From Gammaproteobacteria bacterium (GTDB lineage Bacteria > Pseudomonadota > Gammaproteobacteria > Steroidobacterales > XN24), in assembly GCA_020341735.1 (NCBI GenBank), contig CP070833.1, forward strand, positions 1,761,050 to 1,804,256: DNA of 43,207 nt, in the 5' to 3' direction. Below, piece after piece: positions 20,137 to 28,181 of the stretch; the first letter of the stretch is position 1, and each line of letters begins with the position of its first letter. Under the pieces are notes generated by a model. It had not been told where the DNA came from. It ran no database searches and saw only the letters and a program-made list of their open reading frames with translations. A program made the position numbers and the translations under genes.

Positions 20137-21231
20137 TCAATCGTCCTCGACAATGATCTCGGGAAATGGCTGGCTGCCCGCACCGGAGAGTTCAGCCAAC
20201 TTGGCTGTCGTCCGCCGGGCCACTTCGAGATAGGCGGCCGAAATGGAACTATCCGGATCGGACGCGACCGATGGGCGCCCGCTGTCTGCCTCCTCCCGGA
20301 TCCGGCCGTCCAGAGGCAAACCGCCGAGGATCGGGAGCCCGTAGGTCTCGGCCATGCGGGCGGCGCCTCCCTCTCCGAATATCGGATCCTGGTGGCCACA
20401 GTTCGAGCACACATGCATGCTCATGTTCTCGACGATCCCGAGCACGGGGATATCGACTTTCTGGAACATCCGCAGCCCTTTGATTGCGTCCTGCAAGGCG
20501 ATGTCCTGAGGCGTCGTCACGATCACGGCGCCGCTGACCGGCACCTGCTGGGATAAAGTCAGCTGGATATCACCCGTGCCGGGCGGCATATCGACGATCA
20601 GATAATCAAGCTCATCCCAGAGAGTCTGGCCCAGCAGCTGAGCGAGTGCGCTGGTAGCCATTGGCCCCCTCCACACTACAGCCTCGTCTTCGTCTACCAG
20701 GAATCCGATCGACATACACTGGATACCGTAGCCGATAAGCGGATCCAGCCTGCTACCGTCCGGGCTGGTCGGTCGGCGGCCTGCGAGTCCCAGCATCCTT
20801 GGCTGACTGGGTCCATAGATGTCTGCATCCAGCACGCCCACGCGGGCTCCCTCTTCTGCCAGGGCCAGTGCCAGATTGACAGTCGTCGTAGACTTGCCCA
20901 CACCGCCTTTTCCGGAAGCGACCGCGATGACGTTCTTTACCCCATTTAGAGGCGACACCTGGCCCTGCACGGGCGCCGCGGCCACTTCCGACACAAAATC
21001 GATAGTTACCTTGTCGACACCAGGTAGCTCATGCAGCGGCTCGGCAAGTGATGCCTGCAGCTTCCGGGCGTAGCGCTTTGCAGGAAAACCAAGCCGCAGT
21101 GAAACACTCAGGCTACCCTCGACAAGCTTGACGTCCAGAATCTCGCCGACCGCCTCGAGCCCACTCTCGAGAATCGAATCTCTGTATCCGATCACGATCG
21201 ATCGGACGTCGCTAGTTATTGAATCGCTCAA
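20137..21231 (-). CDS. apbC: Mrp/ApbC iron-sulfur cluster carrier ATPase
   Basis: This 364-residue P-loop protein of the Mrp/NBP35 family transfers Fe-S clusters to apoproteins. It has an N-terminal MIP18-like (DUF59) domain over the first 90 residues. The deviant Walker A is GKGGVGKSTTTVNLA near residues 109-123, and the ATPase motifs DADIYGPSQPRMLG and VDMPPGTGDIQLTL follow. The cluster-binding CxxC is HVCSNCGH near residues 273-280. In gammaproteobacteria mrp is often directly divergent from metG. Here the HEAT-kinase and two pilT-like genes lie between them. The downstream dcd gene starts directly after its stop. Confidence 0.96.
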   Translation of the reverse strand: MSDSITSDVRSIVIGYRDSILESGLEAVGEILDVKLVEGSLSVSLRLGFPAKRYARKLQASLAEPLHELPGVDKVTIDFVSEVAAAPVQGQVSPLNGVKNVIAVASGKGGVGKSTTTVNLALALAEEGARVGVLDADIYGPSQPRMLGLAGRRPTSPDGSRLDPLIGYGIQCMSIGFLVDEDEAVVWRGPMATSALAQLLGQTLWDELDYLIVDMPPGTGDIQLTLSQQVPVSGAVIVTTPQDIALQDAIKGLRMFQKVDIPVLGIVENMSMHVCSNCGHQDPIFGEGGAARMAETYGLPILGGLPLDGRIREEADSGRPSVASDPDSSISAAYLEVARRTTAKLAELSGAGSQPFPEIIVEDD

Positions 21232-21505
21232 CGAAACTCTCCATGGCCAGGTCGGCGCCCAGAATCAGGGCGGCCATTGTAGCCGAAACAGCCCTGTACC
21301 AGTGGCACCGGCGCTTGGAGAATGTCCGGGCCCCGTGTAAGGTAGACGGGATGACTAGAGGCGTTAGGGCCAAGGACTTGTCGCCCCCCCGTGCAGCCGT
21401 CCCTCGGGGATCGCTGGCGTGCCTGTCGCCGTCGTCATTCGCCGCTGTGGGCAGACACTCCGTGACTTCGATAGCTACACGGTCAAGATCAGGGGCCGGC
21501 ACTCG
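21232..21505. other. Divergent intergenic region, mrp / HEAT-kinase
   Basis: At 274 bases this is the longest gap in the window, and it should hold the promoters of both mrp (-) and the kinase-pilT operon (+). The kinase frame is open from GTG 21419, so the gap may really be only 187 bases. I see no clear -35/-10 pair, inverted repeat or small gene here. The stretch is GC-rich with a C-run at about 21386. Confidence 0.4.
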
Positions 21506-23902
21506 ATGAGCATCCTGGGCGGCACCCGTGCGCGCAGATTGATATCCCGTCTCGAAGATCTCGACGATCTCAATAGTGGCGACTCCAGGCAAGCGATTCA
21601 GAAGCTTCGGGCGCTCGGCCCGTCTGCCCTGAAGCAGATCATCGAGGCTCTGGATTCCGCCGACAAGCGCCGTTCGGTGTTTCTGGCCGACCTGCTCAGC
21701 CGGATCATTACAGATAAAAACCTCGATACGGCGATAAAGGGGCTGTCCCTGGAGAGCCAGCGGGGCGCGACGGCTGTTGCCTGGGCGATCGGTCACGGCA
21801 GTGGCTTCAATCCCAACCGGCTGCTGGACTATTTGAAGAAGGCCGACATTCCACGGGCGCCGTTGTGCGATGCCCTGATCCATCAGCGAGACCGGCTGGA
21901 CGTTCGCCGGGTACTGACCCAGGCGTATATGATGGAGTCGACCGAGAAGGCCGTGCTGTTCCGGATCGTGGCTAATGCGGCCAGAGAAGACCACATACCC
22001 GAGCTTATAACCCGGCTGACCGGCAAGGATGTCGTCGCGCGGGCCCATATCATCGACATGCTGTCGAATTTCGATCGAGTTGATGTATACCGGGCTCTCG
22101 AGGAACAACTGGGAGATCAGAACAAGCTGATTCGTCAGGCGGCGATTTCGGCGATCGGGCGGATGTCTGCATCCCCGGACATCGAGAAACTGTGCGAGTT
22201 GCTATGCGACCCGGATATCGATGTCCAGAACAAGGCTGTGGACATCATCGTCAAGCAGAACCATCCGGAAACGGTCAAACACATCATCGTCGCGTTGAAG
22301 GACGATTCCGAGTACGCGCGACGCGCCGCGGTCGAAGTGCTCAACGAAATTGCGGATCCAGAGTCCGTCAAGGATCTCCTCGAAACCCTCGGTGACGATG
22401 ATTGGTGGGTGCGGGCAAGAGCTACGGATGCTCTTGCAAAGATTGGTGGCCCACGCGTGGTCAATGCCGTCGTCCAACTCATCAATGACGAGAACGAGGA
22501 CATCCGCCGGGCGGCGATCGAATTGCTGAATAGCACTCGGGACGAGCGAGCCGTAAAGAAGCTGATCGAGGCGACGGAAGATGAGGACTGGTGGGTCAGG
22601 GAACGGGCCGCCGATGCCCTGGCCGAGATCGGCGATCTGCGCGCACTGCCTGCACTGGAATCCATGCTTGACGGTGATGCGCGCTCCATCCCGACCGCGA
22701 TCCGGGGCGTTGTCAAATTAGGAGACGATCGGCACATACCCCGCCTCATGGAGCTTGCAGAGCACGAGAATAGAGAGGTCAGGGTAGAAGCGATGCACGG
22801 CCTGACCCGCCTGGCCGATGCCGATAGTGCCCAGGACATCAGAGAGGTCGCCAGCCGCCACGTCGACGACCCGGACAAAGCCGTTCGCAAGGCAGCCATC
22901 CACGTCATCAAATCTATCGACGATCGCTATTCACCCTCCCAGATCGAGCAGGCGGCAAAGGCGAAACGGTTCGCCGAGCCGACGCGCACGATGCTGCTTG
23001 ATGAAAAAGAACTGGGAGCCGCAATTCAGGGAGGCGCCACGGTCCAACAGCAGTTGGATATCACAACGTTGAATGCGGGCGATGTAATCGAGGGGCGGTA
23101 CCGTTACGTCAAGAAAATTGGTAAGGGCGCATTCGGCACGGTCCTCCTCATGAGCGACCTCGTGGTCGAGGAAAACCTGATCCTCAAGTTCCTCAACCCG
23201 AACGTGGCCTCAGATGCCGAGGTAATGAAGAGATTCGTGCACGAGCTCAGATATTCGCGCAAGATCACTCACCGCAATGTCATCCGGATCTATGACTTCC
23301 TGAAAATCGGAGGTCACTACGCTATCTCGATGGAATACTTTCCGTCGCATACGCTCGGCGACGAAATGAAAAACGAGGAGCCGCTCCAGGTTGAGACGGC
23401 GATCAAGTATGCCTGCGACATTGCCACGGGCATGGATGTGGCCCATCAGGCGGGGATCGTCCACCGCGACCTCAAGCCTGCGAACATCCTCATCGATGAT
23501 GAGGGCCTCCTGAAAATCGTCGATTTCGGCGTGGCAGCCGCTCGCAGCAGCGGCGACACGCAACTGACCAAGACCGGCTACGTCATCGGGTCCCCCAAAT
23601 ACATGGCACCAGAACAGATCCTCGGCAAGCAGGTCGACGAGAAGGCGGATATTTACAGTCTCGGCGTGATCATGTACGAAATGCTCACGGGCATTCCCCC
23701 GTACAGCCGCGGCGACCATATGTCAGTGATGTATCAACACGTTCAGGGCAAGGCGAAGATGCCCCATGAGGTCAACGCGGCCCTGCCAGAAGAGATCAGC
23801 AAGTGCGTTGCGAGCTGCATGTCTGTCGACAGGAGCAAACGCTACACCAGCATGGAACAGGTCAGGGAAATCCTGCAGGATTTTCTGCCGGCGGAAACCT
23901 GA
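21506..23902 (+). CDS. HEAT-repeat protein fused to a Hanks-type serine/threonine kinase
   Basis: This predicted 798-residue cytoplasmic protein has two parts. Residues about 1-500 form an array of HEAT (PBS-lyase-like) repeats of about 31 residues. Near-identical units DDWWVRARATDALAKIG and EDWWVRERAADALAEIG, with tryptophan pairs at 300-301 and 362-363, are spaced 62 residues apart, which is two repeats. Residues about 530-795 form a complete protein kinase: the glycine loop GKGAFG at 539-544, K561, HRDLKPANIL with H653, D655 and K657, DFG with D673, and APE in YMAPEQ. No membrane segment or extracellular sensor is seen. ATG 21506 has AGGGG 10 bases upstream; GTG 21419 is an alternative start. 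Two PilT-like genes follow at once, suggesting the kinase acts on pilus motors or their partners. That role is inference. Confidence 0.9.
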   Translation: MSILGGTRARRLISRLEDLDDLNSGDSRQAIQKLRALGPSALKQIIEALDSADKRRSVFLADLLSRIITDKNLDTAIKGLSLESQRGATAVAWAIGHGSGFNPNRLLDYLKKADIPRAPLCDALIHQRDRLDVRRVLTQAYMMESTEKAVLFRIVANAAREDHIPELITRLTGKDVVARAHIIDMLSNFDRVDVYRALEEQLGDQNKLIRQAAISAIGRMSASPDIEKLCELLCDPDIDVQNKAVDIIVKQNHPETVKHIIVALKDDSEYARRAAVEVLNEIADPESVKDLLETLGDDDWWVRARATDALAKIGGPRVVNAVVQLINDENEDIRRAAIELLNSTRDERAVKKLIEATEDEDWWVRERAADALAEIGDLRALPALESMLDGDARSIPTAIRGVVKLGDDRHIPRLMELAEHENREVRVEAMHGLTRLADADSAQDIREVASRHVDDPDKAVRKAAIHVIKSIDDRYSPSQIEQAAKAKRFAEPTRTMLLDEKELGAAIQGGATVQQQLDITTLNAGDVIEGRYRYVKKIGKGAFGTVLLMSDLVVEENLILKFLNPNVASDAEVMKRFVHELRYSRKITHRNVIRIYDFLKIGGHYAISMEYFPSHTLGDEMKNEEPLQVETAIKYACDIATGMDVAHQAGIVHRDLKPANILIDDEGLLKIVDFGVAAARSSGDTQLTKTGYVIGSPKYMAPEQILGKQVDEKADIYSLGVIMYEMLTGIPPYSRGDHMSVMYQHVQGKAKMPHEVNAALPEEISKCVASCMSVDRSKRYTSMEQVREILQDFLPAET
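22394..22632 (+). repeat. Tandem 62-codon HEAT-pair repeat inside the kinase gene
   Basis: Two copies of a D-D/E-D-W-W-V-R-x-R-A-x-D-A-L-A-x-I-G block occur at codons 297-314 and 359-376 of the kinase gene, separated by a unit with EDIRRAAIELL. The 62-codon period equals two 31-residue HEAT units. The protein copies are much closer to each other than the DNA is, so this is a protein repeat under selection and not a recent DNA duplication. Confidence 0.7.
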
Positions 23903-23905
23903 TAG

Positions 23906-24997
23906 ATGGCAAGGATTGACGCATTTCTCAAGCTGGGACTCGCCCAGGGATGTTCGGATATACATCTCGCTGTCGGCCTTCCGCCGATGTTGCGGCTCCG
24001 CGGCGATCTCATGCCAATCAAGTTTCGCGACCTGTCCGGCACCGAGCTCGAAGGATACGTGCTGGAAATCCTGACCGAGACCCAGGAGGACCGATTCTCA
24101 AACGGCCATGACCTGGATTTCGCCTATGTCGCGGAGGACGGCGGCAGATTCCGGGTCAACCTGTTTCGCAAGGATACCGGCGTCGGCGCCGTGTTCCGAT
24201 ATATACCCGAGGAAGTGCCGACGCTGGAGAGCCTGGGATTGCCGGATATCGTTCGGGAGATGTGTGACTACAACCAGGGCATGGTCCTGGTCACGGGGGC
24301 AACGGGCACAGGCAAGTCAACGACCCTAGCCGCGATGCTGGATCACATCAACCGCCAGCGGCAGCAGAACATCATCAGTCTCGAGGACCCTATCGAGTTC
24401 GTCCACGAGAGCAAAAAATCCCAGATAGTTCAAAGGGAATACAACACCCATTTTGGCAGTTTCGCGGACGCGGTCCGTGCAGCCATGCGCCAGGATCCGG
24501 ATGTCGTGCTGGTGGGTGAGATGCGGGATACGGAGACTATCCGGATGGCCATGACGGCCGCAGAAACCGGTCACCTGGTCCTCGGCACTCTACATACGAC
24601 CAGTGCCGTCAAAACACTGGACAGGATCATTGATGCCCTGCCGGCGCTGGAGCGCGGCCAGGCGAAGAGTTTCCTTGCCCAGAGCCTGAACGGTGTTATT
24701 ACTCAAGTGCTGGTCCGGACAGCGGACGGCAGAGCGCGTCGCGCGGTCTTCGAGATCATGACTCGCACCAAGGCCATCTCCAAGCTCATCATGTCAGATC
24801 AAGTACATCTGATCCCCTCCCAGCTTCAGACCGGCAAGGAGGCGGGCATGCAGAATATGGATCAGGCGCTGCTCGATGCCATCAACGCCAAGGAGATCGA
24901 TCCGGATGACGCCTACCGGTTTGCGATCGAGAAGAAAAAGTTTGTTGGGCATGTCACAGACACCAATCTTCTCCCCAAGCTGGAAATAGATGAATGA
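23906..24997 (+). CDS. pilT: PilT-family pilus retraction ATPase, first copy
   Basis: This 363-residue secretion-type ATPase is of the PilT family, hexameric motors at the cytoplasmic base of type IV pili. The N-terminal part has CSDIHLAVGLPPMLRLRGDL. Walker A is GATGTGKST at 131-139, the Asp box lies in ISLEDPIEFVHESK, Walker B is VVLVGEMRD near 200-208, and the His box is GHLVLGTLHT near 222-231. The motif equivalent to AIRNLIR of retraction ATPases reads AISKLIM at 290-296, so it is degenerate. It follows the kinase stop by 3 bases and its end meets the second copy. Both copies look more like PilT than PilU. Pilus genes themselves are not in the window. Confidence 0.9.
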   Translation: MARIDAFLKLGLAQGCSDIHLAVGLPPMLRLRGDLMPIKFRDLSGTELEGYVLEILTETQEDRFSNGHDLDFAYVAEDGGRFRVNLFRKDTGVGAVFRYIPEEVPTLESLGLPDIVREMCDYNQGMVLVTGATGTGKSTTLAAMLDHINRQRQQNIISLEDPIEFVHESKKSQIVQREYNTHFGSFADAVRAAMRQDPDVVLVGEMRDTETIRMAMTAAETGHLVLGTLHTTSAVKTLDRIIDALPALERGQAKSFLAQSLNGVITQVLVRTADGRARRAVFEIMTRTKAISKLIMSDQVHLIPSQLQTGKEAGMQNMDQALLDAINAKEIDPDDAYRFAIEKKKFVGHVTDTNLLPKLEIDE

Positions 24998-25013
24998 GAC
25001 GGGAGACACTTAC

Positions 25014-26081
25014 ATGAGTCTCATCCGTGAACTTCTTCAGGAAGTGGTCGAACGAAACGGCTCGGATCTGCATCTGATCGCCGGTGATCCGCCGCGCATG
25101 CGGCTGCACGGCGATCTGATCACAATGCGCGAGGCAATCCTTGAACCGCAGGAATTTCGCGACGAGCTCAGCGGCATTATTCCGCCCAAGGCTACGGAAG
25201 TCCTTGCGAAGGAGGACCAGGCAGATTTCGCCTACGCGATGGACGACATGGCGCGCTTCCGAGTGAATGCATTCAGACACCTTGGCGGTATGGGAGCGAT
25301 CATGAGGAGCATCCCGGACCACCCTCAAAGTCTGGACGAACTTCAGCTCCCGAAAGTCATCGGTAAGCTCTGCAAAGAGTCCTCCGGACTGATCCTCGTC
25401 ACCGGCAAGACCGGATCCGGGAAGTCGACCACTTTGGCCGCGATGATCGACGACATCAACCGCCGTACAAAGGGCCACATTCTTACTATCGAGGATCCCA
25501 TCGAGTTTGTGCATGAGCGCAAGAACTGTCTCATCAGTCAGCGGGAGATCGGCGTGCACAGCCCGAGCTTTTCCGAGGCGCTGCAATCAGCATTGCGGGA
25601 GGATCCCGATGTCATCCTCGTCGGTGAGCTGCGTGATCTGGAGACCATGAGCACCGCCATAACCGCCGCGGAGATGGGCATTCTCGTGATGGCCACTCTG
25701 CACACGAATGGAGCGATCCAGACAGTGGACCGCATAGTCAATGCGTTCCCGACGGAAAAACAGTCTCACGTCCGGACGATGCTGTCGACGTCGCTGCGCG
25801 GCGTGATTTCCCAACAGCTCTGCCGCAAGAAGGGTGGTGGCGGGCGAGTCCCTGCGTTCGAGGTCATGGTCAACACATCGGCCGTCAGTAACCTTCTGAG
25901 ACAGGGCAAACTGGACCAGATAGAGAGCGCGATGCAGGCAGGTGCAAAGTCAGGGATGCTGACTATGGATAACGCGCTCCAGGACTTGCTCGACCGACGC
26001 TTCGTGTCCGGACGAGAGGCCTACGAGATGGCCATCTCGAAAGAACGCTTCAGGATCTACGCCGACCAGCCCAATCGCTGA
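25014..26081 (+). CDS. pilT: PilT-family pilus retraction ATPase, second copy
   Basis: This 355-residue paralogue of the preceding ATPase keeps the whole PilT layout: GSDLHLIAGDPPRMRLHGDL, Walker A GKTGSGKST at 131-139, TIEDPIEFVHERK, VILVGELRD near 200-208 and MATLHTN near 226-232. The motif equivalent to AIRNLIR reads AVSNLLR at 290-296. With ATG 25014 as start, the key motifs fall at exactly the same residue numbers as in the first copy. GGGAG about 9 bases upstream also supports that start. ATG 24990, overlapping the previous gene, is the alternative. The pair could form a mixed motor or act as PilT and a PilU-like helper, which is inference. Confidence 0.9.
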   Translation: MSLIRELLQEVVERNGSDLHLIAGDPPRMRLHGDLITMREAILEPQEFRDELSGIIPPKATEVLAKEDQADFAYAMDDMARFRVNAFRHLGGMGAIMRSIPDHPQSLDELQLPKVIGKLCKESSGLILVTGKTGSGKSTTLAAMIDDINRRTKGHILTIEDPIEFVHERKNCLISQREIGVHSPSFSEALQSALREDPDVILVGELRDLETMSTAITAAEMGILVMATLHTNGAIQTVDRIVNAFPTEKQSHVRTMLSTSLRGVISQQLCRKKGGGGRVPAFEVMVNTSAVSNLLRQGKLDQIESAMQAGAKSGMLTMDNALQDLLDRRFVSGREAYEMAISKERFRIYADQPNR

Positions 26082-26109
26082 GAGCGCCGGCCCTCCAAGC
26101 CCCCCGTTA

Positions 26110-26118
26110 TGCGATAAT
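26110..26118 (+). promoter_or_regulatory. Possible extended -10 promoter element upstream of metG
   Basis: TGCGATAAT at 26110-26118 matches the extended -10 form TGnTATAAT apart from its first hexamer base, and lies 33-41 bases before the metG ATG. No recognisable -35 hexamer stands upstream, which is tolerable for extended -10 promoters. It lies in the only spacer between the pilT pair and metG. Confidence 0.3.
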
Positions 26119-26150
26119 TCGCGGTCCGCCCGGTTCTAACTCGACATGTT

Positions 26151-28181
26151 ATGGAACAAGCTCGCAAGATTCTTGTAACGGCCGCCCTGCCCTATGCAAA
26201 TGGCCTGGCTCACATGGGGCACCTGGTCGAATACATCCAGACCGATATCTGGGTTCGTTTCCAGCGGCTGATCGGTAATGACTGCCTATTCGTCTGCGCC
26301 AGTGACGCCCACGGTACTCCGATCATGATCCGCGCGAGGAACGACGGCATCGATCCGGAAAAGCTGATCCGCCACTACCACGATCGGTACAAAGAGCATT
26401 TCGCCGCGTTTCATATCCGCTTCGATAACTTCCATACGACACACTCGCAGGAAAACCGAGATCTGGTCGAAAAAATCTACGCGACCCTGAAGACCGGGGG
26501 GCACCTGGACAGGCGGACGATTCGCCAGGCTTTTGATGAGACAGAAGCCATGTTCCTGCCCGACCGCTTCGTCCGCGGGACCTGCCCGCGTTGTGGAGCT
26601 GAGGATCAATACGGCGACAGCTGCGAATCCTGCGGGGCGACCTATTCACCGGCAGAGCTGATCGAGCCGACCTCCGTTCTCTCCGGTACCCGTCCAGTCG
26701 AACGCGAATCGGATCATCTGTTCTTCCGCCTCGGACATTTCGAACAAGCTCTGCGGCAATGGGTTACCAGTGGAGCTCTGCAGGAGAGTGTCCGCAAGAA
26801 ACTGGACGAGTGGTTCGACGCCGGCCTGCAAGACTGGGATATCAGCCGGGATGCTCCTTATTTCGGATTCGAGATCCCGGATATGCCGGGTAAATACTTC
26901 TATGTCTGGCTGGATGCCCCGGTGGGCTACATGGCCAGCCTGATGGAACTGTGTCTGCGACGGAAAGACCTGGATTTCGACGATTACTGGAGTCCGGATA
27001 GTAACGCCGAGGTCTATCACTTCATCGGCAAAGACATCGTCTATTTTCACTCGCTGTTCTGGCCGGCTGTACTCCAGGCCGCGGGATTCAGGGTTCCGAC
27101 GGGTGTCTTTGCTCACGGTTTTCTCACCGTGAACGGCGAAAAGATGTCCAAGTCGAGGGGCACGTTTATTACCGCCGCGACCTATCTGGACCATCTGAAC
27201 CCTGAGTGCCTGCGCTATTACTACGCGGCGAAGCTCGGGTCGGGTGTTGAGGATATGGATCTCAACCTTGAAGACTTCGTTCAGAAGGTCAACTCAGACC
27301 TGGTCGGGAAGCTCGTCAACATCGCCAGCCGCTGCGCCGGATTCATCATACGATTGTCGGACGGCCGTCTGGCGGACCAATTGCCTGACCCGGACCTGCA
27401 TGCCAGCCTCTGCAATGCTGCAGAAGCAGTGGCGGCAGCCTACGAGTCCCGGAGATACAGCAAGGCGATGCGGGAAATCATGCGGATGGCCGACCTGGCT
27501 AACCAGTTCATCGACCGCCACAAGCCCTGGGTCATGGCGAAACAGGACGGTCAGCAGGAAGCTGTCCAGGCGGTGTGTACTCAGGGGATTAACGCCTTCA
27601 GAAGTCTGATTATCATGCTCAAGCCGGTACTGCCAGGCATGGCTGCGTCCGCCGAGCGATTTCTCGGCGAAGGAGACCTTCAATGGAACGATATCGGTCG
27701 CCCTCTGCTGGGGAAGTGCATTCGCAAGTTCGAACCACTCATGAAACGCATAGATCCAAAGGCGGTCGCCGCCATGGTTGAGGCATCAAGAGAGAATCTC
27801 GGCCCGTCACCTGCCGACGATTCTCAGGCAGGCCAGCCCGCCGAGACCGCCGCAGACGAGATCACAATCGATGACTTCAGCCGCATCGATCTTCGGGTGG
27901 CACGGATCATTTCCGCCGAGCCGGTTGAGGGCGCCGACAAGCTCCTCAGGCTGGAACTGGACCTGGGCGACAGCCGGCGACAGGTCCTGGCCGGAATCCG
28001 ATCCGCATATGATCCCGAATCCCTGACCGACAGGCTCGTTATCGTCGTTGCCAATCTCAAGGCCAGGAAGATGCGTTTCGGAACCTCAGAGGGCATGGTG
28101 CTTGCTGCTGGGCCCGGAGGGGACGAAATCTTCTTGCTCTCGCCCGACGATGGAGCCACTCCCGGTATGAAGGTGACGTGA
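26151..28181 (+). CDS. metG: Methionyl-tRNA synthetase
   Basis: This 676-residue class I synthetase charges initiator and elongator tRNA-Met. The HIGH-type motif is in [13 protein letters not shown] at residues 14-26. A zinc knuckle with four cysteines is at CPRCG and CESCG near residues 145-162, and KMSKS occurs as [11 protein letters not shown] near residue 330. After the helical anticodon-binding domain, a linker of about 40 residues leads to a C-terminal EMAP-II-like tRNA-binding domain ([14 protein letters not shown] to the end) that dimerises the enzyme. This is the E. coli-type architecture. The first codons [18 protein letters not shown] match the family start. mrp, its usual divergent neighbour, is 4.9 kb away here. 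Confidence 0.97.

Follow-up and report, generated by a model that had tools for sequence, protein, structure and literature searches.

The kinase and motor genes at the locus

The analysed stretch of DNA (the window, 43,207 nucleotides) carries three consecutive genes on the forward strand, KIN, PTA and PTB, which encode a HEAT-repeat kinase and two PilT-family ATPases. The features are listed below with the evidence for each.

21232..21505, no strand: divergent intergenic region between mrp (-) and KIN (+), the expected site of the operon promoter (gene layout)
21506..23902, + strand: KIN, a 798-aa cytosolic HEAT-repeat Hanks-type Ser/Thr kinase (Pfam, model, alignment)
within KIN, + strand: catalytic residues K561, E580, HRD 653-655 and DFG 673-675 (alignment of 55 homologues)
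22400..22600, + strand: two WWVR HEAT units of KIN (residues 299-303 and 361-365), a candidate docking surface (conservation)
23906..24997, + strand: PTA, a 363-aa PilT-family ATPase (TIGR01420, motifs)
25014..26081 (start probable), + strand: PTB, a PilT-family ATPase of ~355 aa whose reading frame could open at 24990 (TIGR01420, motifs)

The KIN reading frame itself opens earlier, at GTG 21419; the starts of homologues agree with ATG 21506. Using Pfam, we found HEAT_2 (E 3.8e-67) and Pkinase (residues 532-786, E 3.1e-55) in the protein, which is composed of about 31 HEAT helices (residues 2-486), a disordered linker (485-514) and the kinase domain. The AlphaFold model (pLDDT 85) has a pTM of 0.51, so that the arrangement of the domains relative to one another is uncertain, and its activation loop is disordered. 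No membrane segment is apparent, the top 19-residue hydropathy being 1.41. The alignment showed that K561, E580 and H653-R654-D655 are invariant in the homologues (55/55), while the DFG Asp (D673) and the Pro-Glu of APE are each kept in 54 of the 55, with one gap. KIN has all the elements of a Hanks-type Ser/Thr kinase (invariant Lys, C-helix Glu, HRD, DFG and APE). The PknB-type PASTA kinase model gave 274.5 bits against a cutoff of 450 and matched the kinase domain only, so KIN is not PknB-type. The two WWVR units rank with the best-conserved stretches of the scaffold, and residues 261-380, which contain them, are about equal to the kinase core in conservation, which suggests that this region is a candidate binding surface.

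Both PilT-family reading frames have 363 codons as opened, and both products match TIGR01420 (PilT/PilU) over their full length, above its curated cutoff (415 and 446 bits versus 319.1). PTA begins 3 bases after KIN. The first ATG of PTB, at 24990, overlaps PTA by 8 bases; since homologues begin at the position of ATG 25014, PTB probably starts there, 16 bases past PTA. The Walker A Lys, the Asp-box Glu, the Walker B Glu and the His-box His are invariant in 50/50 PTA and 50/50 PTB sequences, and the RFR arginines are nearly invariant across the same proteins. The C-terminal AIRNLIRE is a PilT motif absent from PilU, which works only with PilT (PMC6762196). PTB has a PilT-like AVSNLLRQ at this place, and most PTB sequences follow A(V/I)xNL(I/L)R(Q/E); in PTA the motif is degenerate (AISKLIMS), like PilU in that respect. 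From these motifs, the pair resembles a second PilT/PilU set, with PTB as the PilT-like and PTA as the PilU-like member.

The three genes are flanked by mrp/dcd/purNM on one side and metG/rsxABC on the other; no pilus structural gene adjoins them in the window, and they do not belong to a type IV pilus operon. The initial annotation, made from the sequence alone, had described an intact HEAT-repeat Hanks kinase with D655 (HRD) and D673 (DFG), followed after gaps of 3 and about 16 bases by two PilT-family ATPases away from pilus structural genes; the reading frames, domain matches, alignment and flanks bear this out, including the residue numbers. Consensus scans returned no sigma-70 match in the divergent intergenic region and no terminator-like site in 21200-26300. 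PTB and metG (26081-26151) are spaced by only 69 bases, and because this interval also has no terminator-like site, a transcript may run on from PTB into metG. A gene some 10 kb upstream of it (L195:8017-9264) encodes a receiver domain joined to a Hanks-type kinase domain; this lies outside the window.

Relation to canonical PilT, PilU and other pilus genes

To place the motors, we used a maximum-likelihood tree of 91 sequences, including 24 PTA, 24 PTB and the PilT of P. aeruginosa. The results showed that PTA and PTB each form one clade and are sisters of one another (99/94), and that together they are sister to canonical PilT, P. aeruginosa PilT included (98/91), with PilU apart. One distant sequence labelled PTA by best match (L193) fell outside the PTA clade. 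PTA and PTB thus lie outside both the PilT and the PilU clades; they do not stand in a yggS-pilT-pilU context, and the PilT motif is approximate in PTB and degenerate in PTA. We rejected their identification as canonical PilT and PilU, because the tree separates them and the canonical genes are found elsewhere in the genome.

The source genome is one contig of 2.89 Mb. Its canonical locus (C1:1153858-1157264) encodes PilT (C1:1156224-1157264), PilU and a second PilU-like ATPase, divergently from a yggS homologue, so PTA and PTB are extra motors beside canonical PilT and PilU. The same three ATPases, the second PilU-like one being of 351 aa, are seen at a canonical locus in the taxonomic order to which the window belongs (L038:5859-9265). 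A single pilin-pilB-pilC cluster, with a probable prepilin peptidase gene behind it, lies away from the KIN operon. The genome also has one type II secretion system with GspE and GspD, and PilB and GspE were the only assembly-type ATPases found in it.

Co-occurrence of the kinase with paired PilT genes and with type IV pilus genes had been proposed as a check. The first part held in all 15 KIN-positive genomes examined with TIGR01420, each of which has 4-7 PilT-family genes, among them PilT, PilU and the pair linked to the kinase. The second part did so less clearly: pilB presence (86% versus 68%) was weakly associated with KIN, and since most of the class has pilB, this is modest evidence.

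We considered whether PTA and PTB drive another pilin-type machine under the control of the kinase, be it the pseudopilus of the type II secretion system or some other filament. The secretion system of the source genome would allow this, as would genome G098 (single contig, 2.4 Mb; loci L157 and L194), which has the kinase operon, a GspE-type ATPase and a third PilU-like gene and lacks PilB. However, G098 also keeps canonical PilT, PilU and PilQ, the motors are sister to PilT with a PilT-type motif in PTB, and the operon in the window has no type II secretion gene nearby, which makes this explanation distinctly unlikely. In G231, a congener of G098, PilB is present together with only one PilT-family gene, and the kinase is missing.

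Conservation of the three-gene order

The window's taxonomic order includes Woeseiaceae, Steroidobacteraceae and Thioalkalivibrio sp. XN8. Counting matches that extend beyond the kinase domain, the full kinase was present in 45 of 59 genomes of this order, and the arrangement mrp-KIN-PTA-PTB-metG was found in 20/20 loci examined from it. Nearly all of these 20 loci sit in a longer block, purM-purN-dcd-mrp-KIN-PTA-PTB-metG-rsx. As the flanking genes are equally conserved here, conservation within the order alone shows no functional link, and the kinase and motors could be co-transcribed neighbours with purMN, dcd, mrp, metG and rsx as no less constant companions.

Outside the order the flanks change, and the results were different: among loci with unrelated flanks, from about 20 gammaproteobacterial families, KIN-PTA-PTB occurred in this order in 29/31. 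One of the two exceptions runs off the contig after PTA; the other (L171, in a fragmented MAG) is an orphan kinase without motors. Among 80 named contigs, the triple was unbroken in all 64 with room downstream, and more than 30 families of Gammaproteobacteria share this gene order. Loci outside the order also add FHA, PP2C and cyclase partners (see below). Because the triple persists where its flanks differ, we rejected coincidence of neighbourhood, which appears highly improbable. A dedicated kinase-motor operon, as proposed in the initial annotation, is therefore strongly supported, and the lack of a conserved three-gene order in relatives, named there as an outcome that would speak against the claim, was not what we observed.

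In a sample of the class, the HEAT model matched in 49 of 370 genomes; five of these belong to the window's order, and three, of family f159, have a divergent kinase without motors. At these three loci (L166, L167 and L168) the HEAT kinase shows 26-28% identity and has other neighbours and no PilT genes. A phylum-wide sample yielded no further carrier, its single match (1/299) being the source genome itself. The pairwise divergences of KIN, PTA and PTB correlate (Spearman 0.76-0.81), as expected of a unit inherited together, although species history alone would also give such a correlation.

Phospho-signalling neighbours and a possible mechanism

We surveyed the neighbours of the operon outside the window's order at 32 loci with a usable gene map. 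A protein of ~156 aa resembling DUF6812 is encoded upstream at 18 of the 32, an FHA protein downstream at 12 and a divergent PP2C phosphatase at seven; six loci (L141, L142, L148, L149, L157 and L158) carry a class III cyclase-FHA fusion, both domains of which were confirmed by Pfam. In a panel of 39 genomes, the cyclase-FHA gene was present in 15/22 genomes with KIN versus 1/17 without it (Fisher p = 8e-5), a value that is only indicative because the panel was hand-chosen and its genomes are related. In the same panel, the DUF6812-like gene was found in 8/9 KIN-positive genomes outside the order and in none of the KIN-negative ones.

Within the window's order, the operon contains no FHA, cyclase or DUF6812-like gene, and the DUF6812-like gene was absent from the genomes tested. 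The source genome does have a cyclase-FHA gene, unlinked to the KIN operon; we rejected a cyclase-FHA link in this order, since this gene, though present, lies away from the pilus genes.

The model of the DUF6812-like protein (for example L163:4950-5420, with 17 further loci) is mostly beta with the look of tandem small barrels (pLDDT 84.7). A fold search of this model against the PDB gave no significant match, only a weak resemblance to Sm/Hfq-like small beta-barrels. At one locus (L146, 2151-4271, with the kinase oriented +), an FHA-GAF-HD-GYP protein is encoded divergently upstream, and related genes occur at three more loci. By eye, this protein is a probable c-di-GMP phosphodiesterase, and such neighbours possibly link the operon to c-di-GMP.

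By the established roles of their domains, a kinase, a phosphatase and phospho-Thr readers at one locus make up a full Ser/Thr signalling set. The conserved active site, together with the recurrent FHA, PP2C and cyclase-FHA neighbours, supports phospho-signalling. The interpretation in the initial annotation stands in part: the results support its core, a dedicated phospho-signalling module for an auxiliary motor pair, while phosphorylation of the motors by the kinase, binding of the HEAT array to the hexamers and on/off switching of retraction are hypotheses.

We propose that KIN-PTA-PTB is a kinase-controlled auxiliary pair of type IVa pilus retraction motors, to which we give a probability of about 0.58. 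In this model PTA and PTB, which are paralogues, arose by duplication of a PilT-like ancestor and copy the division of labour between PilT and PilU, with PTB as the PilT-like motor and PTA as its PilU-like helper. They would most likely act on the platform (PilC) of the genome's type IVa pilus, beside canonical PilT and PilU. Soluble KIN might use the WWVR repeats of its HEAT solenoid to dock on the motor hexamers or on the platform, and its kinase domain might phosphorylate a motor or a nearby Thr. FHA proteins could read the phospho-Thr and PP2C could reverse it, and phosphorylation might set the auxiliary motor to work, slow it or park it. Motor phosphorylation by KIN and the direction of the signal are inferred; four conserved Ser/Thr positions specific to PTA and PTB are candidates, and none stands out as an obvious phosphosite. 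Besides this last point, we counted against the proposal the FHA, cyclase and DUF6812-like genes outside the operon in the window's order, G098 with no PilB, the orphan kinase of L171 and the weak association with pilB.

The main alternative is that the signal runs in reverse. PTA and PTB would then sense load or contact from their place at the pilus base and switch on a docked kinase, and phospho-Thr would recruit FHA and cyclase-FHA proteins to produce a second messenger. Canonical PilT and PilU are present for bulk retraction, the cyclase-FHA gene lies near the operon at six loci of other orders and co-occurs with KIN elsewhere, and Pil-Chp-cAMP surface sensing in Pseudomonas offers an analogue. 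However, the cyclase-FHA gene is missing from 7/22 KIN-positive genomes and unlinked in the window's order, and the ATPase motifs are complete in both motors, although a pure sensor could do without them; we consider this direction rather unlikely. More broadly, a docked HEAT kinase, with FHA proteins as readers, PP2C as eraser and cyclase-FHA as output, might form a pathway built around the second motor pair, either for retraction control or from load to second messenger, without a Chp histidine kinase or c-di-GMP, a tentative view that we place somewhat short of even odds.

If kinase control of the motors is true, the fixed pairing in one operon of a Ser/Thr kinase with its own motors, seen in more than 30 gammaproteobacterial families, would be a new logic of pilus control. 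A widespread HEAT kinase would thereby gain a function, and the five PilT-family ATPases of many genomes would be easier to explain; phosphorylation of the motors becomes directly testable. Open-access papers yielded nothing relevant on a HEAT or Hanks kinase with PilT, or on PilT with FHA and a Ser/Thr kinase, and no HEAT protein of the cyanobacterial EbsA/PilB complex was found in PMC8092324. As far as the open-access literature goes, the fixed operon of a kinase with a dedicated motor pair appears to be new.

Among known systems, PTA and PTB are like PilT and PilU (TIGR01420) in family, in having all ATPase motifs and in forming a tandem pair with one AIRNLIRE-type member and one without, but they are a separate pair of sister clades, additional to the canonical genes, in a kinase operon and not beside yggS. 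PilT2 of Neisseria and the several PilT copies in Geobacter and Myxococcus are likewise extra paralogues, some of which modulate retraction, but they are not known to have a Hanks-type kinase partner. KIN shares a complete RD-type kinase domain with PknB/StkP-type kinases, whose kinase domains it matches in the PDB; it differs in having no PASTA domains or membrane segment, an N-terminal HEAT solenoid, and motor genes as fixed partners. The Ser/Thr kinase SpkA is involved in the motility of Synechocystis, a cyanobacterium that moves with pili (PMC4390875). Phospho-control of pilus-dependent movement therefore has a precedent. To our knowledge, SpkA is not in a fixed operon with motors, and its architecture is unlike that of KIN. 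The known control of type IV pilus motors runs through histidine-kinase Chp systems and c-di-GMP, and in Pseudomonas and Xanthomonas, Chp/Pil-CyaB and c-di-GMP through FimX provide dedicated signalling on pilus motors with a cyclase output. Those systems are based on a histidine kinase or c-di-GMP, whereas the KIN system is one of a Ser/Thr kinase with FHA readers.
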